From Bacteroidales bacterium (GTDB lineage Bacteria; Bacteroidota; Bacteroidia; Bacteroidales; F082): 40,053 nucleotides of DNA. The stretch's first letter is position 1. Every line of letters starts with the position of its first letter. The stretch lies in contig WGDP01000257.1 of the NCBI GenBank assembly GCA_015493215.1, positions 1 through 40,053 of the forward strand. The letters run 5' to 3'. This document shows positions 12,791 to 39,627 of this stretch, in pieces. The notes under the pieces were generated by a model. It saw only the letters and a list, made by a program, of their open reading frames with translations. It was not told the DNA's origin and made no database searches. Both the position numbers and the translations under genes were made by a program.

Positions 12791-15109
12791 TTATTGAATC
12801 GCCAGTTTTTTTATTACAAAACCTTTACTCATGTTAATTTTTACGAAATAGATACCTTGTGGCACGGCTTCAATATTCATTAACACATGTTTACCGGTAG
12901 CTTTAATTGCAATGGACTGCTTCTGTCCGGAAATATCAAACAACTCAACACTTATAACAGGTTTACTGCTTTCGATGGCAATGTAATTATTGGCGGGATT
13001 AGGGTGAATAGAAACTGTTGGGTTGTCGTTTTCGGCAATTCCAACGCCGGTATCACAACTAAGTACTGCTTTCCAACCTGAATGAGTTACCATCCCATCG
13101 GAGTGAAATTTAAAGGTTAAAGCGCCTTCGTTATTGGTGGCAGTTATTTTGCCGGGGCTGTCAGTGCCGCAATAAGTCCCAATTGGCGTTGCACTGGTTG
13201 AGCTGCCATTGTATATTTCAAGGTAATCGTAGTTGCAGCTGTACTCGGGTTCCACATCAAAAGCGGTAAAGTCGGCCACCAATTTGGCGTTGTTTGTATC
13301 CGGAAAAAAGGTCATTACATAGTCTTCATCATTGCTGTAATCAGCATCAGCGCCACCTGAATCATAAAAATTGCCGCTACATACTGTGAACGAACCGTTT
13401 TGCATGTTATAATTTTCCGATACGCTGATGTAGTTTTCTTTGGTAAGCTGACTTTGTGCTCCGCTGGAGTCGGTTACGGTAAGGGTAACATCAAATTGCC
13501 CAAGTTGGTTATAAACAATGCCCTGTGGGTTTTGTTCCGATGAAGAAGCAGGCTCTCCTCCCGGAAAACTCCAACTCCACGAAACAATGCTGTCACCATA
13601 GGAGCTGTCGAAAAAGTTTACCGAATCACCACTGCTAATGGCTGTATCGCTGGCATAAAAGTCTGCCAACACAGGGCCGGCAGGCTGAAGCTGAACATCC
13701 AACACCGTTGCCTGCCTGTCGGTTACCGAAACAGTAATGGTTTGGTCGTTGTACCCAAAGGCTGAAAAAGTTATATCATAGGTTCCTGCCTTAAGCATAC
13801 GATGGTAATTACCCACAGGAAGTGAAGAATAAACTTCCGAATTATCAATATCGTGCCCCTCAATAAAAACCTTTGCCTGTACTGGCGCGCCTGATACACT
13901 ATTGGTAATTACACCTCGTACACCATAAGTGGATTCTTTCATATAATTTAAAAAAGAACGGTAATCATAATCCCAAAAATCAGGCAGTTGCGATGCGGGA
14001 GGCGTTTTGTCATCTGATAATTCCAATGTAAACTCCCTGCAATGTTTAAAATAGTTCATATAATCCTGTCTACCGCCGGTGATGCTGTACCAGGCATATC
14101 CATTGGTAACGCCGTTGTTTAAAGTCGTAAAATAATTTGCCGGAGCGTATTGATGGATGGTGTCGGCAAATTCGCGCGAAACAAAATACCACCAGTCGTT
14201 GTCGGCTGTAAGTCGCGACCAGGTGTCCCAGGGGTAGTTGGCCACTTCGGCGCCACCATGCAGGTTTGCTGACATAACAATGTTGTGTTCGTCAGCAAAA
14301 TTCATAAACGCAACGGTTTCATCCTGATAGATATTGCCATCGGGATGAGAGCCGGCTTCCGGATCGGGATAGTTTCGGTTTAAATCAACATTGTTGGCGT
14401 TTGTACGGGTAGCTCCATAAACGGTATTGTTGCCGCCATGATAAGTGCCGTCAGGGTTGGCCAACGGGTTTATCCAAATGTCAATACTGTCAACCATATT
14501 GGTAACTTCCGGAATAACACCATAATTTGAAAGGAGGTAATCAATTAAGTGCAACATCAGCACATATCCGGTAACTTCGTCGCCATGCATGGTCGAAGTG
14601 TACAGAAACTGAGGCTCGTTTTGTGCGGTTGTCAAGTCGTTGTTAATGTGGATAAACAGCAACTCTCTGCCGCTTTCCAGTGTGTCGATACTAATATACT
14701 CGCACAACGACGGATAATCGGTGGCAAACTGTTGCATCATACTTACATAGCCTTCGTAAGTGGGGTAGAAATCCCAGTCGGTAATTTCCCTGATGTTGAT
14801 ATTGCTCAGCATTTTAGGCTGCCGCAACATGGAGGGAGGAGTGAGCACTTTATAGGTAAGGCCGGTTGTTAAAAACTTATCAAACTGAGCCTTGTTGGCA
14901 TAAGCGATAATATGATTGTTTTCAATTTTATCCACATAAATTAGCTTCCCGACTTTTTGTAAATCAACCGGTAGATTTTTTGTTGGAATGGTAAAATAAA
15001 CTTCGCCGCGATTATTTAAATAGTCGAAAGCTTTGTTTTTTTCGCTTTGCTGTCCAAAACCTGACAGGGAAAAAACAATAAAAAAAGCAACAATAAAAAA
15101 CCGTTTCAT
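12791..15109 (-). CDS. Secreted M14 zinc carboxypeptidase with PKD, CUB-like and T9SS sorting domains
   Basis: A 772-residue exported metallopeptidase. A signal peptide (residues 1-20) precedes an M14 domain with zinc ligands H175 and E178 (MHGDE) and H284 (NLHGG), and catalytic E363 in FTLELSDD. A carboxypeptidase regulatory-like beta-sandwich (about 390-470), a PKD domain (about 475-560, SWSWSFPGGEP) and a CUB-like domain (about 575-680) follow. The end is a type A T9SS sorting domain: IHPNPANNYIAI, then VELFDISGQ, then GIYFVKI and a basic end. It is therefore predicted to reach the cell surface or medium through T9SS. It starts 15 bp after dapA and may be cotranscribed with it. Confidence 0.93.
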   Translation of the reverse strand: MKRFFIVAFFIVFSLSGFGQQSEKNKAFDYLNNRGEVYFTIPTKNLPVDLQKVGKLIYVDKIENNHIIAYANKAQFDKFLTTGLTYKVLTPPSMLRQPKMLSNINIREITDWDFYPTYEGYVSMMQQFATDYPSLCEYISIDTLESGRELLFIHINNDLTTAQNEPQFLYTSTMHGDEVTGYVLMLHLIDYLLSNYGVIPEVTNMVDSIDIWINPLANPDGTYHGGNNTVYGATRTNANNVDLNRNYPDPEAGSHPDGNIYQDETVAFMNFADEHNIVMSANLHGGAEVANYPWDTWSRLTADNDWWYFVSREFADTIHQYAPANYFTTLNNGVTNGYAWYSITGGRQDYMNYFKHCREFTLELSDDKTPPASQLPDFWDYDYRSFLNYMKESTYGVRGVITNSVSGAPVQAKVFIEGHDIDNSEVYSSLPVGNYHRMLKAGTYDITFSAFGYNDQTITVSVTDRQATVLDVQLQPAGPVLADFYASDTAISSGDSVNFFDSSYGDSIVSWSWSFPGGEPASSSEQNPQGIVYNQLGQFDVTLTVTDSSGAQSQLTKENYISVSENYNMQNGSFTVCSGNFYDSGGADADYSNDEDYVMTFFPDTNNAKLVADFTAFDVEPEYSCNYDYLEIYNGSSTSATPIGTYCGTDSPGKITATNNEGALTFKFHSDGMVTHSGWKAVLSCDTGVGIAENDNPTVSIHPNPANNYIAIESSKPVISVELFDISGQKQSIAIKATGKHVLMNIEAVPQGIYFVKINMSKGFVIKKLAIQ

Positions 15110-17018: not shown

Positions 17019-18716
17019 ATGCCCAATCTATTTAAAGATATTCATTTAGGAAACCACAGCTTTTACACCCATCTTTATCGTTACCGCTATTTTGTTTTGT
17101 TCCTCGCCATTTTTATCGTCTATTTTTTTAATATGTTTATTGATATTATGAATATTGATGCGGCCCAATACGCATTGATATCCATGGAAATGAGCATCAC
17201 AAAGAGTTTCCTGCACGTTTACCAGCTCGGGCATGATTATCTGGATAAACCACCGTTACTTTTCTGGCTTTCTTCCTTGTCGTTTCTGGGGTTCGGTATT
17301 TCTAATTTTACTTACAAGCTGCCTTCGGTTTTGGCCGCCCTGTTGGGTATATACAGTGTTTACCGCTTTTCCCGTATCTTTTACAGCAAAGAAAAATCCA
17401 TTCTGGCAGCGCTAATCCTGGCAACCACTCAGGCGCTTTTCCTCATTACCAACGACGTTAGGACTGATACGCTGCTTTTGGGATTTACCATATTTTCTAT
17501 CTGGCAGTTAATCGAATATCTCCGGAAAAAACGAATCATCAACCTGATACTGGGTTCTGTGGCAGTGGGTATGGCCATGCTGGCCAAAGGTCCAATCGGG
17601 ATTGTGGTGCCTGCTGTGGCTTTGGGGAGCCACTTTTTGCTAAAAAAACAGTGGAAAAACATTTTTAAGCCCCAATGGCTGCTGTTGCTTGTCATTGTCC
17701 TTATTGTTTTGTTGCCCATGTGCTACGGTCTATATACCCAGTTTGACCTGCATCCCGAAAAAACGGTTTATGGTTTGCATGGCCCCTCAGGTTTGCGTTT
17801 TTTTTTCTGGACACAAAGTTTCGGCAGGATTACCGGTGCAAGTCAATGGGATAACCATACAGGATTCTTTTACTTTTTTAATACCATTTCGTGGGATTTC
17901 CAGCCCTGGTTACTCTTTTTTATCCCGGCTATCGTGTGTAGGTTCCTGCAACTCATCAAACGAAAATCAATTAAAAACGACAAGGCAGAATACGTTACCC
18001 TGGGCGGGTTTACCCTGATGTTCATTGCCTTGTCCCTGTCAAGGTACAAGCTCCCCCATTACATCTATGTCCTGTTCCCGTTTGCTGCAGTCATAACCGC
18101 CGATTTTATTTACAATTTAAAAAACCGGGCGTTAACCATCCTTTCAGGGGTACAGTTTGGCCTTATGCACTTTTTTTGGCTGATGATGGCCATTGATTTC
18201 ATTTTTGTTTTTCCCCCAAAGAATCTGATTCTTCCCATCATCCTTACCATTCTTTTTATTATTACCTGGATAGTGTACAAAAAACTTCAATCCAAAACAG
18301 AACGAATTATTATCCCAACCATATTAACAGCTGTTGCTTTTAACTTGTTAATGGCTGTAAATTTCTATCCCCATCTCTTAACCTATCAGGCCGGTTCGCA
18401 AATCGGCCAAATGGTTGCAAATAAACATATTCCTGCCAACCGGTTTTATGATTGTGGTAGTTCCGATTTTGCCCTTGATTTTTACGCACGGCGTAACACT
18501 CCTCAAATTGCAGTTAAAGATATTCAAAAACTTCCCCCTGAAAGCCGGGTAGCTATGAATCAAAATGAATACGTAGCGTTTAAAAAAACCGGCGTCCCCT
18601 ATAAACTCTTGAAGGTCTTTCCTTCTTTCAGGGTTACCCGGCTAAACCCGACTTTCCTGTACAAAAAAACAAGAAGCAAAACCCTTGAGAAAGTTTACCT
18701 GATTGAAACACAATAG
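17019..18716 (+). CDS. Glycosyltransferase family 39 / ArnT-like membrane protein
   Basis: A 565-residue polytopic membrane protein. After a first TM span comes NIDAAQYALISMEM, the acidic first periplasmic loop that in ArnT/PMT enzymes holds the catalytic Asp/Glu, then DYLDKPPLLFWLSSLSF, the hallmark Lys-Pro-Pro segment of the PMT_2 domain (PF13231). About a dozen further spans follow, then a soluble periplasmic tail (about 455-565). Such enzymes move a sugar from undecaprenyl- or dolichyl-phosphate carriers to lipid A or proteins at the outer face of the inner membrane. The acceptor cannot be inferred. It stands alone between two unrelated genes. Confidence 0.88.
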   Translation: MPNLFKDIHLGNHSFYTHLYRYRYFVLFLAIFIVYFFNMFIDIMNIDAAQYALISMEMSITKSFLHVYQLGHDYLDKPPLLFWLSSLSFLGFGISNFTYKLPSVLAALLGIYSVYRFSRIFYSKEKSILAALILATTQALFLITNDVRTDTLLLGFTIFSIWQLIEYLRKKRIINLILGSVAVGMAMLAKGPIGIVVPAVALGSHFLLKKQWKNIFKPQWLLLLVIVLIVLLPMCYGLYTQFDLHPEKTVYGLHGPSGLRFFFWTQSFGRITGASQWDNHTGFFYFFNTISWDFQPWLLFFIPAIVCRFLQLIKRKSIKNDKAEYVTLGGFTLMFIALSLSRYKLPHYIYVLFPFAAVITADFIYNLKNRALTILSGVQFGLMHFFWLMMAIDFIFVFPPKNLILPIILTILFIITWIVYKKLQSKTERIIIPTILTAVAFNLLMAVNFYPHLLTYQAGSQIGQMVANKHIPANRFYDCGSSDFALDFYARRNTPQIAVKDIQKLPPESRVAMNQNEYVAFKKTGVPYKLLKVFPSFRVTRLNPTFLYKKTRSKTLEKVYLIETQ

Positions 18717-22018: not shown

Positions 22019-22939
22019 ATGATTAATCTGAAGAACAGAAGTCTGATTTCAATTACAGACTACAGCAAAGAAGAAATCCTTAAGGTATTGGAGATTGCAG
22101 AGGATTTTGAAAAAGATCAGCGGCAGCAGATTTTAACAAAAAATGTAATCGCGTCACTGTTTTTTGAGCCTTCTACCCGAACCCGGCTGAGTTTTGAAAG
22201 CGCAGTTCAGTATCTTGGAGGTAGTATTATCGGGTTTGCCAGCGCCGACACCTCCAGCGTTAAAAAGGGTGAGTCGTTAAAGGACACCATCCTTACGGTA
22301 AGTAATTATTCCGATTTAATTGTGATGCGAAATCCTTTGGACGGCAGTGCCCGCTTTGCCAGTGAGGTTTCACCGGTACCAATTATCAATGCGGGTGACG
22401 GTGCTAATCAGCATCCCACGCAGTGCCTGCTCGATTTGTATTCCATAAAAAAAACGCAGGGAACTCTTGAAAATATACACATAGCCTTGGTGGGCGATTT
22501 AAAATACGGACGTACTGTTCACTCATTGGTTCAGGCACTTAGCCTCTTTAATGCTACCTTCCATTTGGTTTCACCCGATTCGCTAAAATTGCCAAGCGCC
22601 GTGAAAACATACATCAAAAATGCAGGGTTGGAGTATCATCAATATACCGACCTCAATGAGGTAATCCCAATTGCTGACATTGTTTATATGACGCGTGTGC
22701 AGGGTGAGCGGTTTCCCGACCCGCTGGAATATGAAAAGGTAAAAAACGCCTATATTCTGGAAAATTCCATGCTGGAAGGCTCGAAACCCAACATGCGAAT
22801 CCTTCACCCTTTGCCTCGTGTAAACGAAATTAACGAGGATGTTGACAGCAACCCGAAAGCCTACTATTTTCAGCAGGCTAAAAACGGCGTTTATGTTCGT
22901 CAGGCACTTATTGCGGCTATTCTCGGCCTTAAATCATAA
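22019..22939 (+). CDS. pyrB: Aspartate carbamoyltransferase catalytic chain
   Basis: A 306-residue ATCase catalytic subunit, which makes carbamoyl-aspartate from carbamoyl phosphate and Asp. The carbamoyl-phosphate loop is FFEPSTRTRLSFE (S52-T-R-T-R56). HPTQCLLDLY and GDLKYGRTVHSL, the Asp-binding region, and MTRVQGERF and HPLPRVNEI complete the set. The presence of a regulatory chain gene directly downstream indicates the E. coli-type holoenzyme (c6r6). Expression is probably set by the leader attenuator upstream. Confidence 0.97.
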   Translation: MINLKNRSLISITDYSKEEILKVLEIAEDFEKDQRQQILTKNVIASLFFEPSTRTRLSFESAVQYLGGSIIGFASADTSSVKKGESLKDTILTVSNYSDLIVMRNPLDGSARFASEVSPVPIINAGDGANQHPTQCLLDLYSIKKTQGTLENIHIALVGDLKYGRTVHSLVQALSLFNATFHLVSPDSLKLPSAVKTYIKNAGLEYHQYTDLNEVIPIADIVYMTRVQGERFPDPLEYEKVKNAYILENSMLEGSKPNMRILHPLPRVNEINEDVDSNPKAYYFQQAKNGVYVRQALIAAILGLKS

Positions 22940-27338: not shown

Positions 27339-29546
27339 TTATGCAAGTCTCCTTCTGCGATAGGCTACAACCATAAAGAGGAGGATAAAGAAAATACCTG
27401 CATATACTGCCCAGTCGGATAGGGGTACAGGCGGTGCCTGAGTCTCTTCAATGGTAAAGTCATCGATACCCGAGTTGTCTGTACCGAAACCATATATTGA
27501 CATACCCCTGAACCTGAATTGTACATCGTCTGATTTTTTAAACCCGAGATTCATTTCTACTTTAAACCATTGCTCCGTAGTTGAGTGATCATGTGTATAA
27601 AGGGTTTCCCAGGTTGCTCCACCGTCCAGTGAAATTTCAAAATAGATGGGGTTGGTTGCAGCGTCGGAGCCAATCCATGCCCAATAGCTTACCTTATACC
27701 ATTTATCAGGTGTTGAAAGGTCAAATTTGGGGGTAAGCAAATTAAACGGACTTTCACTTGCATAGGTAAAATAATCGTCAAGTAGTGCATAATAGCCTGT
27801 TCCTGAAGTGTGATCTCCGCTTGGCCCGTGGGAGTTGTCTGTTACAAATTCCCACTCGCCGCCGGCGTCACTCGGGTCGTTTGTCCAGCAGTTGGCAATA
27901 CTTCCGGCATTTTCAAAGTCGGTGGAATAGGGGAATGTTGTAATTTTTGCAGGACATGCAGTTGTAAAATGAAGTGGGCCGATATAGCTACTTCCACAAT
28001 CTGTTTGTACATATGCATCGTAAGTTGTGCCACCTGTTAAACCGGAAGCAACAACTGTTGTATCGCTAACGTTACCACTGGCAATAACCCCGGTTCCTTG
28101 TGCATTACCCAAAGGTACTACTTCCCAGTTATATCCTGTGGCACCGGAAGCAGGATTCCAGGCAAGCCTTGCTGTTGTGGTAGTCAAATCGGAGGCTGTC
28201 AAGCCACTGGGAGGAGGGCAGGAGGGCATTTCCTTAACGCTGACGTCATCCACCAAGATATCATTATAATATGTAGTTGAAGCTGTTCCTGTAACTACAA
28301 ATTTAAACTGAACATCACCGGTAATTGTGTAACCTGATAAATCAAATAAACCCTGTAGCCATGAAGCATCATCACCTGCGTAGGTTAATAAGGTATTCCA
28401 TGCGGCACCATCATAAAATGATACGGTTAACGTATTATTATCTCCGGGGTTATCTGTGTTATTACTAAAATAGTAAAATTCAAAGGCAGGTGTTGTAAAG
28501 CCACTTAAGTCAACATAAGGTGTGATAAGTGCATTGGTTCCTACACCACCGCTTCCATCAATCCATGCATAATTAGTTCCCCCACCTGGGGTATGGTCAC
28601 CTGCAGAACTGGCACCATAACCGGCTCCTGTACTGAAGAGCCAACTTTCGGTTCCTGAATTATCCCAACAAGCAGGTGTTGAAGAAGAAGAGAAATCTTC
28701 GGAAAGTGTGGTTACAGTTGCACAAGCCGTTGTAAAGGTGTTAGGCCCTACCCATGCACTGGTACCGGTATTGTTCTGATCACAGTCACTACGTACATAC
28801 CAGTCGTAAGTGGTTGCAGCAGTTCCTCCAGCCCAAGTATAAGGGTTGGTAGTTACATCATTGGCCGTTGGCGGGGTGTCTTGCGCGGGAGTTGTTCCGC
28901 CCGATGTTGTAACATAGATGTCCCAGTGGGAACCGCTGGCATCTGTCCATCCTAAATCAGCACCGCTTGAGGTGATGTTGGTTACGGTTTGGGCGGTGGG
29001 ATCGGGGCAGGCAGGAGGTGCATCAATATTTACATCATCCAAATAAACATAATAAAGATAGTTGCCATAATAATGCCATGCAAAAAAGATTGTGCTTCCT
29101 ACATAGGCGCTTAAGTCAACTGTTGTTTCTTGCCAGTCGCTATTTGATAAAGCGACAGATGTCCATGAACTTACAGCAGAAGAGGATTGACTTGTTGTAG
29201 ATATCCCCCATTCCAAAGTTTCTGATGAACTATTGTACTTTCTGTGCCAAAAGGTGAGTTGAGTATAACTTCCTGTTACGTGAATGGTATCTGTAAACAG
29301 ATATTGGTTGTAATCGCTGGCCGAACTATAAGAACTAAACCGGCATGAATAGGTTCCGCCCGTAGTGTGGTTTTGACTACTGCTTTTGGTAATGTCGTTT
29401 GCAGCATCACCAAGCTCTTTGACCCAACCATTGGGTAAAAATGTCCCCTCAAAATCTTCCGTGTAAGGAAATGATGTGATTTGTGCTTTTCCTATCCAAG
29501 GTATAAAAAAAGCAAGCATTAAAATCAAAAGTAATTTTCTCTTCAT
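27339..29546 (-). CDS. Large secreted adhesin-like protein with exosortase-type C-terminal signal
   Basis: A 735-residue protein with a signal peptide (residues 1-22). Three MAM/cleaved-adhesin-like jelly-roll modules (about 25-175, 275-440 and 530-700; each opens with an E-D-F or T-D-F-E motif) alternate with two fibronectin III-like modules (about 180-275 and 440-530). The last 29 residues are a sorting signal: VPLSDWA, a hydrophobic span, then YRRRRLA. This closely parallels the end of the protein at 31656-32414, with P, S, W-A, G and YRR shared. The layout matches IPTL-CTERM signals processed by exosortases of the XrtH type. Surface attachment or an adhesive role is inferred from the domains. 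Confidence 0.85.
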   Translation of the reverse strand: MKRKLLLILMLAFFIPWIGKAQITSFPYTEDFEGTFLPNGWVKELGDAANDITKSSSQNHTTGGTYSCRFSSYSSASDYNQYLFTDTIHVTGSYTQLTFWHRKYNSSSETLEWGISTTSQSSSAVSSWTSVALSNSDWQETTVDLSAYVGSTIFFAWHYYGNYLYYVYLDDVNIDAPPACPDPTAQTVTNITSSGADLGWTDASGSHWDIYVTTSGGTTPAQDTPPTANDVTTNPYTWAGGTAATTYDWYVRSDCDQNNTGTSAWVGPNTFTTACATVTTLSEDFSSSSTPACWDNSGTESWLFSTGAGYGASSAGDHTPGGGTNYAWIDGSGGVGTNALITPYVDLSGFTTPAFEFYYFSNNTDNPGDNNTLTVSFYDGAAWNTLLTYAGDDASWLQGLFDLSGYTITGDVQFKFVVTGTASTTYYNDILVDDVSVKEMPSCPPPSGLTASDLTTTTARLAWNPASGATGYNWEVVPLGNAQGTGVIASGNVSDTTVVASGLTGGTTYDAYVQTDCGSSYIGPLHFTTACPAKITTFPYSTDFENAGSIANCWTNDPSDAGGEWEFVTDNSHGPSGDHTSGTGYYALLDDYFTYASESPFNLLTPKFDLSTPDKWYKVSYWAWIGSDAATNPIYFEISLDGGATWETLYTHDHSTTEQWFKVEMNLGFKKSDDVQFRFRGMSIYGFGTDNSGIDDFTIEETQAPPVPLSDWAVYAGIFFILLFMVVAYRRRRLA

Positions 29547-29900: not shown

Positions 29901-30140
29901 CTACTTATTTAAATTATACAGTTTTTTACTGCCATAGGCAGCACCTAATCCCAAAAGGATAAACAAGCCACCACCGATGGGAGCACCACCACCACCCGGT
30001 CCGGGACCATCTCTTTCGGGTCCTTTTTCCTGCATGGCCGGATCATCTTTAGCTCCTGGCGATTGTGTTTGAGCATTTGTAAGGTAAGGTAAAGCAGTGA
30101 ACAGCGTTACGGCTACCAATAAAGTGAGTAATTTTTTCAT
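29901..30140 (-). CDS. 79-residue secreted mini-protein with PIGGG C-terminal sorting signal
   Basis: A signal peptide (1-23, MKKLLTLLVAVTLFTALPYL then TNAQ) is followed by a short charged, Pro/Gly-rich linker (PGPGGGG) and then PIGGGLFILLGLGAAYGSKKL. This is a compact motif-TM-basic tail like the PID-CTERM signals of small Bacteroidota proteins. After cleavage of both ends only about 30 residues of linker would remain, so the protein is almost entirely sorting apparatus. It lies downstream of the exosortase-associated gene on the same strand, 283 bp away. Its function is unknown. Confidence 0.8.
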   Translation of the reverse strand: MKKLLTLLVAVTLFTALPYLTNAQTQSPGAKDDPAMQEKGPERDGPGPGGGGAPIGGGLFILLGLGAAYGSKKLYNLNK

Positions 30141-30423
30141 TTTTCTTATTTTTTCATTTAGATGTTTCAGGGTGTAAAGATAATATTTTTTTTAATATTC
30201 AAAATAGATTTTTAAAATTAATTAACCTGTAGTTGTTAATTGCGTTGACCGGCTTTACGTCAGGTAAATCATCCGGATTTTCAAGTCCGGACGAGTTTGG
30301 AACCATTAGAACTGTTCTGGTTGAGGTTGGATTGCGCGAAGCGGCCTGAGTGGTTGAAAACCAACTAATTGTGGTGGCGTGAACGGCGGGTAAATCCAAA
30401 CGTACTTGTGAGTTGTAAAAACC

Positions 30424-30954
30424 TTAGTTAACACTATCCGTTTTTCTTCGAAAAACAGGGTGTAATATATTGTCTTTAATGACTATGATTAAAGCTATTA
30501 TATAAAAGTTGTCGAGCATCATGTCGAACAAAAACTGTTGAACGGCCGAGTTGTAATATCCTGTAAGAAATATTAAAAAGATTACCTGAATAACAACAAA
30601 CGAAACGATGTTTATTGTCAGTAGTTTAAGGGCTGTTTTAAAATTCAGTACAAAAAATAAAAACAGCTGCCACGATAAAACTATCACAAAGGGCTCCATA
30701 AGCCCTCCGGTTTCCTGCGGATAGTTTCCCATTCTTCCCTGAACACGGGTATAAACCCTGAATTGATAAGTGTTATCCTTTCCTGTTGTTTCCAAATCAA
30801 TTCTGGTATCTTTTTTTATAATTGGTAGCACTATATTGGTAATCCCTACCAACGATTGTTCATATGTTCGTTCAGCCCCCATTTCCCATGCCGTAAAAAT
30901 GATAATGGAGATGGCGATTAGCAGTAATATTTTTTTTATGTATGACCAAAGCAT
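30424..30954 (-). CDS. Exosortase-associated membrane protein
   Basis: A 176-residue protein with one N-terminal TM helix, a periplasmic segment of about 65 residues (Glu/Asp/Lys-rich, with RVYTRVQGRMGNYPQET) and three further TM helices (about 88-103, 113-136 and 145-158). It starts 17 bp after the exosortase gene on the same strand, so the two form an operon. XrtH-type exosortases in other phyla are followed by a membrane protein of similar size and layout. I base the call on context and topology, not on a recognised motif. Confidence 0.65.
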   Translation of the reverse strand: MLWSYIKKILLLIAISIIIFTAWEMGAERTYEQSLVGITNIVLPIIKKDTRIDLETTGKDNTYQFRVYTRVQGRMGNYPQETGGLMEPFVIVLSWQLFLFFVLNFKTALKLLTINIVSFVVIQVIFLIFLTGYYNSAVQQFLFDMMLDNFYIIALIIVIKDNILHPVFRRKTDSVN

Positions 30955-30971
30955 GTCCTTAGTTTATTTTT

Positions 30972-31565
30972 TTAATATTGTGTATTGCTTTCATCCGGGT
31001 TGTCACTTTGTACATTGGAAGTATTGTTGTATCTCCATGCCCAAATCAGGAATACTAAAAAGCCAAATAAAATATTCCAAAGATAATCGTGAACCAAATG
31101 AAACATTTTTTGTGAATAGCTTCCGATGTACCCCACGGTAATAAAACGTAAATTGTTAATTACAAACACTGCCAGTAAAAAAATAAGCAGGGTTATAAGT
31201 CTTTGTTTCCAGTTTACCGGTGAAAACAGGCTTAAAAAGATAACAAAAAGATAAAAATTGTAGGCTGTACATTCCATTACTACTTTCATGGTATAACCAC
31301 CTATGGTTAAAAACGGAAATGCAGTACTGGAAACAGGAATGAAAAATACTTTTCCAAACAGTAGTGAGGATTGCAGTGTAAAACTTATAAAAAATTGGGC
31401 AACTTCATTTTTTATGGAGGGCAGATGCATAATTGAACTGGACACAATCCATAAAGTTACCGCTGCAATCAACGGGAGAAATTGTTTGATTAGCTGTTTA
31501 TTAGCTACTCGTTTGTCTTGCTGATCGGGATGCCTGCGTTTTTTTGTTTTCTTTTTTTTGCTCAT
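30972..31565 (-). CDS. Exosortase/archaeosortase family protein, probably XrtH-like
   Basis: A 197-residue polytopic membrane protein with a very basic N-terminus (KKKKTKKRRH). The three catalytic residues of the exosortase family are in place: Cys99 in VMECTAYNFYLFV, Arg140 in VINNLRFITVGYIG, and a His in FHLVHDYLWN (H156 or H159) just before the last TM helix. The family cleaves and re-links C-terminal 'motif-TM-basic' tags of exported proteins at the inner membrane. Two neighbours carry P-x-S-x-W-A tags, the IPTL-CTERM pattern assigned to XrtH, which supports that subtype. No polysaccharide gene cluster accompanies it. An upstream terminator (31608-31639) separates it from the substrate gene. 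Confidence 0.85.
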   Translation of the reverse strand: MSKKKKTKKRRHPDQQDKRVANKQLIKQFLPLIAAVTLWIVSSSIMHLPSIKNEVAQFFISFTLQSSLLFGKVFFIPVSSTAFPFLTIGGYTMKVVMECTAYNFYLFVIFLSLFSPVNWKQRLITLLIFLLAVFVINNLRFITVGYIGSYSQKMFHLVHDYLWNILFGFLVFLIWAWRYNNTSNVQSDNPDESNTQY

Positions 31566-31607
31566 CTTAGAAGGAAAAAAATTCTTTTATACCTGATTGT
31601 TTGCAAC

Positions 31608-31639
31608 AAAAAAAGCCACTATAAGAAGTGGCTTTTTTT
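31608..31639. terminator. Intrinsic terminator between sorting substrate and exosortase
   Basis: AAAAAAAGCCACT (31608-31620) pairs perfectly with AGTGGCTTTTTTT (31627-31639). It lies 16 bp past the stop of the leftward gene at 31656 and would separate its transcript from the exosortase operon. Confidence 0.9.
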
Positions 31640-31655
31640 GTTAAAATAAAATAGA

Positions 31656-32414
31656 CTAAGCAATGCTTCTTCTGTATCTGATTACTACAAAAGTTCCGAT
31701 AAGCAGAACGCCCAACAAAATGGCCCAGTTTGAAACAGGGACTGCTGCTGTACTTTCATCACCTGTAATTTCAAAACAGAGATCGTAGTTGGCTCTGCCA
31801 GCCCAGGCGCTATAACTTGAAGATTGTCCCCAGGTAGCCGGCCAGGCACCACCAAACAGTTGATCCGGGTCGCGATCGGCAAAAACATAGTTTGCCTGTG
31901 GAGCATTGTTCCATGCCGAACCCCATTGTCCATTTGTGTTATAAGGCATTACGGCTACAATTGATATCCAGTAATGTCCTGCATTCAATTGTATTGTTGA
32001 ATTAAGTGGAATATCAAATCTTCCACCGGATGTTTCCGAAAAGGTTAATCCTGTTTGCTCAAACATTGGTGTTGCTGCAGGCAATCCACTCATGTCAGCA
32101 AAAATCTGAACAGTAAAACTTGTGGCCGGACCTGTTCCGTTCCAATAGCCACCTATTGTTGCAACCGAAGTAACGTTCCATGTTTTTCCAATGGGAATAA
32201 TAAAGTCATCAGCTGTTTGAGCTATGCTGTTGCTGAAATCGGTAAATTGTTGTGAAGCTACAACCGGAATAGTGTCAACAGGGTTCATTTGTGCATATAA
32301 AACACCGGCCTGACTACCGTAATTACCGGCAGTAACACTTCCGCCTTCGGGGGTTTGAGCCATCAAGAATGTGGTCATAAATACGGAAAGCAAAATCAAT
32401 GTAAACTTTTTCAT
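31656..32414 (-). CDS. Secreted protein with IPTL-CTERM-like C-terminal sorting signal
   Basis: A 252-residue protein. A signal peptide (1-20, MKKFTLILLSVFMTTFLMAQ) precedes a single beta-rich domain with QTADDFIIPIGKTWNVTSV and a jelly-roll-like pattern common in PEP-CTERM-type exported proteins. Residues 224-252 are the sorting tail: PVSNWA, a TM helix, then YRRSIA. It is the closest homologue in the window to the tail of the 735-residue protein. It lies immediately upstream of the exosortase on the same strand, behind a terminator, and is the most likely dedicated substrate. Confidence 0.85.
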   Translation of the reverse strand: MKKFTLILLSVFMTTFLMAQTPEGGSVTAGNYGSQAGVLYAQMNPVDTIPVVASQQFTDFSNSIAQTADDFIIPIGKTWNVTSVATIGGYWNGTGPATSFTVQIFADMSGLPAATPMFEQTGLTFSETSGGRFDIPLNSTIQLNAGHYWISIVAVMPYNTNGQWGSAWNNAPQANYVFADRDPDQLFGGAWPATWGQSSSYSAWAGRANYDLCFEITGDESTAAVPVSNWAILLGVLLIGTFVVIRYRRSIA

Positions 32415-37239: not shown

Positions 37240-38427
37240 CTAAACACCTACTCTTTTTTTGTTTCTGATAAAAAGTTTTTCCAATACTTCTGCGGGATTT
37301 TCAAACCTGTTGGAAAACATCATGGCAGCAATAATATAGGGTTTAAAACCGGCTTCCACATAGGTGGGAATGCGATATTTTTCAAAAACGGTTTCACTCA
37401 CTTCACCTGCATCACATGATACATCCGTAATATCTGCCGGCAGGCAATGCATGTATAAAGCATCTTGTTGCCTTGTGAGTTTCATTTTTTCTTCATTGTA
37501 TTCCCACTCTTTAAAATTGGCATTTTGTGCCAAACACTGTTTTTCAAGTTCATCGAGACCTTTTGAGTCTCCCTGTTTTAGCAGCTCCGTGCGTTGTTGC
37601 ATTACACTAAAAGGTGCCCAGCTTTTTGGATACACAATATCAGCATCTCGAACAGCCTCTTTCATTGAGTGGCTAATTTTAAAACTACCACCACTTGCTT
37701 TGGCATTGTTGCGGGCAATGTCCACAATTTCAGGAATCAGGTCATAACCTTCGGGATGAGCCAGCTCAACATTCATTCCCATGCGAGTCATCAGTGCAAT
37801 GATACCCTGCGGTACCGAAAGCGGTTTACCGTATGAGGGCGAATAGGCCCAGCTCATAACGATTTTTTTACCTTTCAGCGCTTCCAGCGAGCCGTAGTGA
37901 TGTTGCAGGTGCAGCAGGTCGGCCATGGCTTGTGTGGGATGATCCTGATCGCACTGGAGGTTTACAATACCCGGACGAACCGGTAAAACACCCTGTGCAT
38001 AACCATCATCGAGGGCTTGGCCAACCTCTACCATATATTTATGTCCTTCACCCAAAAACATGTCATCGCGGATGCCTATAAAATCGGATAGAAACGAAAT
38101 CATATTGGCAGTTTCGCGAACTGTTTCGCCGTGTGCTATCTGCGATTTCTTTTCGTCCAAATCCTGAACGGCAAGCCCCAACAGGTTGGCTGCCGAAGCA
38201 TACGAAAAGCGGGTTCGGGTTGAATTGTCTCTGAAAATAGAAATTGCCAGACCTGAATCGAACATTTTAGGGGAGATGTTTTCATCGCGCATTTGCTTGA
38301 GGATGGAAGCAATCTCCAAAACGGCTTTCAGGTCGTCATCACTTTTTTCCCAGGTAAGCAAAAAATCTTTTTTAAAAAGTGCAGGCTTTAGCTGCCGTAA
38401 TAAATTTATTCTGTCGTTTATTTTCAT
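37240..38427 (-). CDS. ygeW: Knotted carbamoyltransferase YgeW
   Basis: 395 residues, with near-continuous similarity to E. coli YgeW (396 aa) as I recall it: DFLLTWEKS, NISPKMFDSGLAISIFRDNS, QIAHGETVRETANMISF, DHPTQAMADL, WAYSPSYGKPLSVPQG, KSWAPF and YMHCLPADI. The carbamoyl-phosphate loop is S69-T-R-T-R73. The true substrate of YgeW is not settled; the gene belongs to the ygeW-X-Y/ygf set linked with anaerobic purine breakdown and selenium-dependent hydroxylases. It is a distant paralogue of PyrB in the same window. It follows ygeY by 12 bp in one operon. Confidence 0.93.
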   Translation of the reverse strand: MKINDRINLLRQLKPALFKKDFLLTWEKSDDDLKAVLEIASILKQMRDENISPKMFDSGLAISIFRDNSTRTRFSYASAANLLGLAVQDLDEKKSQIAHGETVRETANMISFLSDFIGIRDDMFLGEGHKYMVEVGQALDDGYAQGVLPVRPGIVNLQCDQDHPTQAMADLLHLQHHYGSLEALKGKKIVMSWAYSPSYGKPLSVPQGIIALMTRMGMNVELAHPEGYDLIPEIVDIARNNAKASGGSFKISHSMKEAVRDADIVYPKSWAPFSVMQQRTELLKQGDSKGLDELEKQCLAQNANFKEWEYNEEKMKLTRQQDALYMHCLPADITDVSCDAGEVSETVFEKYRIPTYVEAGFKPYIIAAMMFSNRFENPAEVLEKLFIRNKKRVGV

Positions 38428-38439
38428 GTGTTTAAAATT

Positions 38440-39627
38440 TTACATTTCGTACGCAAAGCCTGCATAAAATGCAGAAGCTTTTACCAGATGATCTACAGGA
38501 ACCTTTTCGTTGGGAGCATGTGCCATAACTTCGTTACCGGGGCCAAAGCCGATGGTAGGAATACCATAAACTCCGTTGATAACCACCCCGTTGGTTGAAA
38601 AAGTCCATTTATCTACCAAGGGTTTTTTGCCAAAGAGGTTTTCGTATGCTGATACGCCTGTTTGAACTACAGGATGGTTTTCTTCCATTTTCCATGTGGG
38701 GTAATATTTTTCCATGCCGTATTCAAGGCCGGTATAGGCTTTTTCGCTGTATTGGAGTACTTCCACTTTGGCATTCATATCTTTTACAATTTCTTCAATT
38801 TCTTTCACTGCCGATTCTTTGGTCTCACCCCAGGTAAGGCGTCTGTCGAGATGTATTTTGGCAAAATCGGCCACTGCACACAACGAGGGGGCACCGGTTA
38901 CCATTTGTGAGATGGTTACGCTTCCTTTACCTAAAAACTCATCGTACGCAAGGTGTTCATTAAGTTTTTCTATTTCCAGAGCAGCCCTTGAGGCCATATA
39001 GATGGCATTTTTTCCTCTTTCGGGTGCCGAGCCGTGTGCCGACAAGCCGTAAAAGCTAACCACTATCTCCATTCGTCCGCGATGGCCGCGATAAATATTC
39101 AGGTTGGTAGGTTCGGTGCTGATGGCAAAATCGGGACGGATTTTATCCTCTTCAACAATATATTTCCAAGGCAGTCCGTCGCAATCCTCTTCCATTACAC
39201 TTCCAACAAAATAGACGGTTAAATCTTTGTCAAAGCCAAGCTCTTTTAAAATTCTGCCGGAGGTTACAAACGATGCCGGGCCGCCTTCCTGGTCAACCGA
39301 GCCGCGTCCGTGAACAAAACCATCCTTTACTTCTCCGCTTAACGGGTCAAATTCCCAGGCATCAAGGTTGCCAAAATCCACCGTGTCCATGTGACCGTCG
39401 ATGGCCAGAATTCTTTTTCCGTTACCAATACGGCCAATTACGTTTCCAAGGCCGTCGATAAATACTTCGTCAAAACCGGCCTCTTCCATTTGCCGTTTCA
39501 ATTCCAACTGCACATCCTTCTCTTGCGTGCTCAACGATTTAATTTTCACCAGCTTCGATAAGTTAGAGGCAGTATAGTCTCTATACTTTTCCGAAAGCTC
39601 ATTGATTTTTGCATGTATCTCTTTCAT
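38440..39627 (-). CDS. ygeY: YgeY family M20 metallohydrolase
   Basis: A 395-residue M20-type hydrolase. The dinuclear zinc residues are H79 and D81 (GHMDT), D112 (GSVDQEGG), E146/E147 (MEEDCDG), and later residues in STEPTNLNIYRGHRG. It is of the kind annotated as 'YgeY family selenium metabolism-linked hydrolase'; E. coli YgeY has about 403 residues. The reaction is thought to be peptide- or carbamoyl-type C-N hydrolysis in the purine/ureide pathway, not proven. It is promoter-proximal to ygeW. ygeX, which lies between the two in E. coli, is absent here. Confidence 0.92.
   Translation of the reverse strand: MKEIHAKINELSEKYRDYTASNLSKLVKIKSLSTQEKDVQLELKRQMEEAGFDEVFIDGLGNVIGRIGNGKRILAIDGHMDTVDFGNLDAWEFDPLSGEVKDGFVHGRGSVDQEGGPASFVTSGRILKELGFDKDLTVYFVGSVMEEDCDGLPWKYIVEEDKIRPDFAISTEPTNLNIYRGHRGRMEIVVSFYGLSAHGSAPERGKNAIYMASRAALEIEKLNEHLAYDEFLGKGSVTISQMVTGAPSLCAVADFAKIHLDRRLTWGETKESAVKEIEEIVKDMNAKVEVLQYSEKAYTGLEYGMEKYYPTWKMEENHPVVQTGVSAYENLFGKKPLVDKWTFSTNGVVINGVYGIPTIGFGPGNEVMAHAPNEKVPVDHLVKASAFYAGFAYEM

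Follow-up and report, generated by a model that had tools for sequence, protein, structure and literature searches.

An unnamed exosortase variant with a constant membrane partner and candidate sorting tails in uncultured Bacteroidota

Described exosortase systems and a locus in a Bacteroidales contig

Two named exosortases, XrtH (TIGR04177), which we take to be paired with a tail named IPTL-CTERM, and XrtX, presumably the enzyme for PID-CTERM proteins, offer comparisons for a locus in a Bacteroidales bacterium (lineage F082; assembly GCA_015493215.1), where genes for an exosortase, a membrane partner and secreted proteins with a common C-terminal tail lie together on contig WGDP01000257.1. 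The window analysed is this one whole contig (40,053 nucleotides), from an assembly of 3.9 Mb in 355 contigs that is 96% complete. For the EpsH/PEP-CTERM system, the part of the source drawn on here lists the conserved motifs Cys-x-Gly, Asn-x2-Arg and His-x3-Gly (PMC1569441). In Flavobacterium johnsoniae, XrtF and the adjacent exosortase F-associated protein are both needed for surface colonisation, and the passages cited state that the targets of XrtF are not yet known (PMC10936215, PMC12188702). For the archaeal ArtA, the section cited puts forward, as speculation, a model in which a Cys attacks and a lipid is attached (PMC7157517).

An unnamed exosortase variant occurs in some uncultured Bacteroidota, and most genomes that have it also hold matching tail proteins. 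The enzyme belongs to a deep clade that reaches the cut-off of no named subfamily. This XrtH-like exosortase, its partner and the tail very likely make up a C-terminal protein-sorting system. Because enzyme, constant partner and candidate tail are defined jointly by co-occurrence, a matched enzyme-substrate pair becomes directly testable, in contrast to the position stated for XrtF. An earlier sequence-only reading had proposed a compact exosortase cassette at positions 29901–32414, and the open reading frames (ORFs) it named are present where it placed them. The features of the locus are as follows.

30972–31565, (-) strand: exosortase of an unnamed subfamily, 197 residues, with Cys99, Asn137-x-x-Arg140, His159 and an invariant ECTAYNFY
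30424–30954, (-) strand: partner membrane protein, 176 residues, with an N-terminal helix, three strands and three C-terminal helices; no family found
31656–32414, (-) strand: secreted protein, 252 residues, with a P-V-S-N-W-A tail at residues 224–252 (55.4 bits with the tail profile); predicted substrate
27339–29546, (-) strand: secreted MAM/fn3/choice-of-anchor J protein, 735 residues, with a P-L-S-D-W-A tail (51.7 bits); predicted substrate
29901–30140, (-) strand: small PID-CTERM protein, 79 residues (PID_CTERM 27.7 bits, above the cut-off of 26)

The locus resembles each of these systems in part. As in XrtH systems, a small exosortase is followed by a downstream protein with several transmembrane (TM) segments, tail genes are close by, and the tail has a Pro and then Trp-Gly/Ala ahead of the TM helix. 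With XrtX/PID-CTERM (NF046081, NF046080) it shares the PID-CTERM protein that adjoins it, and with XrtF the setting of a Bacteroidota exosortase beside a partner protein; here, in contrast to XrtF, the analysis points to a candidate substrate tail. The resemblance to EpsH/PEP-CTERM, as far as the cited part of that source goes, extends to the tripartite tail, the N-terminal signal, an enzyme with Cys, Arg and His, several substrates per genome, and a gene directly downstream (EpsI in Methylobacillus) (PMC1569441). The window exosortase differs in having five hydrophobic segments in a hydropathy scan, against eight given for EpsH in that part of the source, and in the lack of an exopolysaccharide cluster. 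The earlier expectation that no polysaccharide genes lie nearby was borne out when 30 window proteins were scanned, the only such match being a PMT_2 protein (17019–18716) about 12 kb away. Among the matches listed from the exosortase literature, no title or abstract opening describes the window clade or its tail.

The exosortase clade and its partner

The sequence-only reading had picked out the 197-residue protein as exosortase-like from Cys99, Arg140 and a His, and proposed a profile search of it. With the cut-offs of the June 2026 NCBIfam release, the protein passes the exosortase/archaeosortase superfamily model TIGR04178 (42.5 bits, cut-off 23), and it also passes Pfam Exosortase_EpsH (PF09721; 28.0 bits, cut-off 25.7). 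All 26 rows of an alignment of window-type exosortases match TIGR04178 at E<=0.01. Invariant in this alignment are, among others, E98-C99-T100-A101-Y102-N103-F104-Y105, N137, R140, H159, W163, G168 and R178. Four of these residues (C99, N137, R140 and H159) are common to all 44 other Bacteroidota exosortases compared, whereas Y102, G168 and R178 occur in 0 of the 44, and T100 is found in 7, A101 in 5, W163 in 5 and N103 in 3. The predicted structure of the exosortase is of middling confidence (mean predicted local distance difference test score, pLDDT, 78.4), and comparisons with the PDB gave no significant match by fold (best E 1.8) and nothing credible by sequence (best E 0.075).

No named subfamily claims the protein. 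Its score with XrtH is 41.8 bits (cut-off 86), with pacearchaeosortase 39.7 (cut-off 80), with XrtX 33.5 (cut-off 170) and with XrtF 15.2 (cut-off 90). XrtH is the top-scoring named subfamily, with a small lead over pacearchaeosortase, and the models of XrtH, pacearchaeosortase, archaeosortase B and XrtX are each matched by 26/26 relatives. In a maximum-likelihood tree of 71 proteins, the 26 window-type exosortases group on a single branch (support 100/99) whose stem is very long. Long or broken ORFs (L217, L227 and L229) were excluded from the tree, and L196 additionally from the residue counts. The tree is unrooted, and the window-type clade attaches between an XrtH-like clade and the remainder, so that the window-type and XrtH-like clades may be sisters; the attachment point is uncertain because the stem is very long. 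The earlier assignment to the XrtH type is not supported: the curated cut-off and the tree both speak against membership, and XrtH is kept as the nearest named relative.

The locus is conserved in relatives. Named relatives in a protein search are metagenome-assembled genomes of uncultured Bacteroidales or Bacteroidota, one of them labelled Lentimicrobiaceae, and a scan of named genomes returned 24 exosortase loci with 45–91% identity. A sample of the family (173 genomes) contains 15 exosortase copies (at least 53% identity) in 13 genomes, and the identity to the exosortase in 75 further matching genomes is at most 33%. A mobile-element origin was considered and rejected: plasmids gave no match, and of 13 stretches of viral contigs that fitted a pattern, 0 encoded a relative.

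The partner is a constant neighbour. As the sequence-only reading had described it, the adjacent protein (30424–30954) has four hydrophobic segments. A partner gene lies 3' of the exosortase on the same strand in all 36 loci with downstream DNA (of 37 distinct loci), at a distance of -86 to +53 bp. In the family sample the partner profile matches the identical 13/173 genomes as the exosortase, with two copies each in G019 and G171, and G024 also has two partial matches on two contigs. In a sample of the order (393 genomes) the partner stands in for the locus; it was found in 18 genomes besides the window's, and the exosortase adjoins it in 18/18. The exosortase profile was run on 21 genomes of the order sample, namely these 18 and three without the partner (G220, G420 and G532).

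By AlphaFold2 (mean pLDDT 87.7), the partner is modelled with a long helix at its N-terminus, three strands and another three helices. The window partner has no match in NCBIfam or Pfam, and its 24 rows have scattered Pfam/NCBIfam matches only, any single family being limited to at most 3/24 rows. Similarly, the PDB yielded no significant match to the model by fold search (best E 0.19) and none to the sequence. Proteins encoded 3' of XrtH- and XrtX-like exosortases are often similar to the partner in TM layout, but the partner profile does not recognise proteins that neighbour other exosortases (best E 0.24).

Two further kinds of gene recur beside the exosortase. One, near it in 11/27 loci (L044, L047, L051, L055, L056, L059, L062, L064, L066, L067 and L071), encodes a membrane protein of roughly 400 residues with a C-terminal AraC-type helix-turn-helix domain; the domain is PF12833 (62.5 bits in the L071 copy, the sole copy scanned), and a role as regulator of the exosortase system is possible. 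The other, directly upstream of the exosortase in L047, L063, L064 and L066, encodes a secreted protein of about 700 residues whose C-terminal end resembles, by eye, a type IX secretion sorting domain.

Tail proteins and their co-occurrence with the locus

The candidate substrates end in P-[VLI]-S-[ND]-W-A, a TM segment and a basic terminus (hereafter W-A tails). A profile of 29 positions was made from 17 tails near 12 loci, partly from the window's own two tails. The proteins at 31656–32414 and 27339–29546 score 55.4 and 51.7 bits with it, against at most 4.2 bits for the remaining window ORFs and 7.1 bits for the best of 647 control-locus ORFs, and the two tails are therefore not chance matches. 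The description of flanking secreted proteins with motif-TM-basic tails stands insofar as both proteins flanking the exosortase and partner have one, but the tails are of two kinds, P-V-S-N-W-A in one and PID_CTERM in the other. The second W-A protein (27339–29546; choice_anch_J in NCBIfam, MAM and fn3 in Pfam) lies just beyond 29901–32414. A counterpart of 31656–32414 sits at the same position in the sister locus L049.

Tail statistics were taken from 72 of 80 distinct hits in the fetched DNA (those with at least 24 bits; 8 were dropped). In all 72 the C-terminus is within 10 residues of the tail end, and a simple hydropathy test gave a hydrophobic N-terminus in 45 of the 49 tail proteins with a complete 5' end. 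The spacing P-x3-W is present in 67/72 tails and P-x4-W in 0/72; among 71 tails that fit a wider, Pro-requiring pattern, the further positions are S in 63, N in 49 or D in 19, W in 67 and A in 65. The bodies of the proteins are diverse. When 46 were scanned against NCBIfam, the matches were choice-of-anchor L in 4, DUF11-type repeats in 3, choice-of-anchor J in 2, choice-of-anchor R in 2 and a fimbrial isopeptide domain in one. In Pfam, individual tail proteins match MAM, IgGFc-binding and NIDO domains. No tail model was matched at E<=0.001 by the 46 full-length proteins, and none of the specific NCBIfam tail models fits the W-A tails. With the NCBIfam cut-offs seen, the enzyme reaches TIGR04178 only, the partner matches nothing and the tail has no specific model; such genes would therefore be labelled exosortase family or hypothetical at best.

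Further P-x-S-x-W-A tails, for which the sequence-only reading had proposed a genome scan, do exist. The window's genome has six, two in the locus and four on other contigs (C126, C323, C95 and C174), and this rules out the small dedicated cassette that had been envisaged. Weak matches included, G012 has eleven tails and G441 ten. Of 37 loci, many of which end early at contig ends or in short flanks, 16 have a tail gene no more than 5 kb from the exosortase. On these counts, the system is a modest genome-wide sorter and not a private cassette. Clusters of tail genes were also seen: G220 (L253 on C54), which lacks this exosortase, has six on a single contig, and G329 (L254 on C52) has four, again on a single contig.

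Across genomes, the tails follow the locus. In the family sample, 19/173 genomes have tail matches at E<=0.01, comprising 11/13 exosortase-positive and 8/160 other genomes (P 7e-11, Fisher tests here and below). With a threshold of 30 bits, which excludes five enzyme-negative genomes scoring 18–21 bits, tails are present in 14 genomes, 11/13 exosortase-positive against 3/160 others. With the genomes that supplied the profile removed, the proportions become 3/5 against 3/160 at 30 bits or more (P 2.6e-4) and 3/5 against 8/160 at E<=0.01 (P 0.002). In the order sample, 19/393 genomes have tails at E<=0.001, namely the window's genome, 15/18 locus genomes and 3/374 partner-negative genomes (G220, G420 and G532); at 30 bits or more the comparison is 12/18 against 2/374 (P 7e-17). 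Removal of the profile-source genomes leaves 11/14 against 3/374 at E<=0.001 (P 2e-16) and 8/14 against 2/374 at 30 bits or more (P 1e-11).

Several observations weigh against reading the locus as a sorting system. The Fisher tests assume independent genomes, and since genomes of the same clade are not independent, all of these P values overstate the association. Tail matches are missing from 5/31 locus genomes (G020 and G024 at E<=0.01; G350, G370 and G486 at E<=0.001), and three others (G247, G317 and G516) have tail matches of 23–28 bits only. Conversely, this exosortase is missing from genomes whose tails score at least 30 bits (G001, G003, G035, G220 and G420) and from genomes with weak tails of 18–22 bits (G027, G088, G104, G161, G164 and G532). 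The exosortase profile had no match in G220, G420 or G532, and G001, G220, G420 and G532 each have another exosortase that passes TIGR04178. Thus, unless the assemblies are incomplete, tail and enzyme do not pair strictly one-to-one, and the enzyme-negative, tail-positive genomes may reflect assembly gaps, remnants or shared tails. The alternative exosortases of G420 and G220 score best with XrtX, below its cut-off. Among the other exosortases considered for the enzyme-negative genomes, L192 and L193 score best with XrtX (101.9 and 91.1 bits, cut-off 170), L194 is placed beside them by the tree only, and L193 and L194 adjoin, by eye, polysaccharide-type genes.

Two further points on the same side concern the tail and the active site. 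The isolated 29-residue tail of 31656–32414 scores 16.1 bits with the LPXTG anchor TIGR01167, just above its cut-off of 15.9. The tail lacks an LPXTG motif, and the whole protein scores 11 bits. When the 17 isolated tails were compared with the NCBIfam tail models, LPXTG-anchor was matched for 9, Loki-CTERM for 2 (the tail of 31656–32414 reaching 17.1 bits, cut-off 19.9) and VPxxxP-CTERM for 1, and these matches are taken as a generic Pro/TM/basic resemblance. As for the enzyme, the window clade has C-T-A and H-x3-W, so that only N-x2-R, one of the three EpsH motifs, is fully present. Two active-site motifs unlike those of classical EpsH bear on which residues exosortase chemistry really needs.

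Alternative explanations, a proposed mechanism and neighbouring genes

It is possible, if doubtful, that the locus is a diverged XrtH system, with its tails as IPTL-CTERM variants and its partner as a diverged XrtH-associated protein. Besides the leading XrtH score and its match by every row, Cys-x-Ala and His-x3-Trp are also found in some XrtH-clade proteins (L202 and L205), P-x4-W-[GA] tails such as VPSLGEWG and VPTLGEWA are encoded near 5/8 exosortases of the XrtH-like clade, and the proteins 3' of several of these have a TM segment at the N-terminus and more towards the C-terminus. L202 is the only one of the eight that is over the XrtH cut-off. Against this reading, the window protein scores less than half that cut-off, and the strongest E-value over the 26 rows is 1.8e-13, compared with 3.8e-25 (88.7 bits) for L202. 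The window-type exosortases stand as a separate, well-supported clade on a long stem, with an ECTAYN signature. The W-A tails, with P-x3-W, are one residue shorter than the P-x4-W tails of the XrtH clade and so depart from IPTL-CTERM, whose model is also absent from the matches of the 17 tails at E<=1. The partner, for its part, has no detectable sequence similarity to the XrtH-associated proteins.

A second candidate substrate is the 79-residue PID-CTERM protein, which, with its genomic relatives, the exosortase might serve besides or instead of the W-A tails. A PID-CTERM gene lies just 3' of the locus in both locus-bearing genomes of the genus (G000, the window's genome, and G004). The window's genome has six PID-CTERM matches at E<=0.001, including those on contigs C105, C326, C327, C3 and C108, and despite these it holds no second exosortase above the TIGR04178 cut-off. 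PID-CTERM does not track the exosortase in the family sample: matches (E<=0.001) were obtained in 102/173 genomes, comprising 10/13 exosortase-positive and 92/160 negative genomes (P=0.24), and the enzyme is far below the XrtX cut-off. On this independent distribution, PID-CTERM was rejected as the main substrate; the 79-residue protein is probably not a substrate of this exosortase, and the wider proposal is quite improbable. An unprocessed protein can also be anchored in the inner membrane by a C-terminal TM segment that is followed by basic residues. The W-A tails could on that basis be ordinary membrane anchors with an incidental exosortase neighbourhood, as the genomes with W-A tails and without this enzyme would allow. 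This appears very improbable indeed, given that P-x3-W precedes the TM segment in nearly all tails, that the tails sit exactly at the C-terminus, and that tail and enzyme co-occur in held-out genomes as well.

For the preferred reading, a C-terminal protein-sorting system, the family membership, invariant residues, constant partner, tail architecture and genome co-occurrence come from sequence, and a route can be proposed by analogy with the exosortase family. The substrate would be exported by Sec and held in the inner membrane by its tail, which the exosortase, a cysteine transpeptidase-like enzyme with several TM segments, would recognise. Cys99, with Arg140 and His159, might then attack near the P-x-S-[ND]-W-A motif and form an acyl-enzyme, whereupon the tail would be cut off and the substrate released or handed to an acceptor, to move to the cell surface. 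The partner may act in a complex with the exosortase and be needed for activity, specificity or acceptor hand-over. A bolder proposal, which is rather unlikely, is that the clade forms an exopolysaccharide-independent sorting route beside type IX secretion, with the partner supplying specificity for the acceptor (lipid or other) and with ECTAYN, W163, G168 and R178 reflecting a different chemistry.

Elsewhere in the window, positions 12791–15109 encode an M14 carboxypeptidase with CUB, PKD and Por_Secre_tail domains, the last of which indicates that a type IX secretion tail is present in this genome too. Two different carbamoyltransferase genes are present (37240–38427 and 22019–22939). An M20 peptidase gene (38440–39627) adjoins the former, perhaps as part of an acetylornithine-type arginine pathway.

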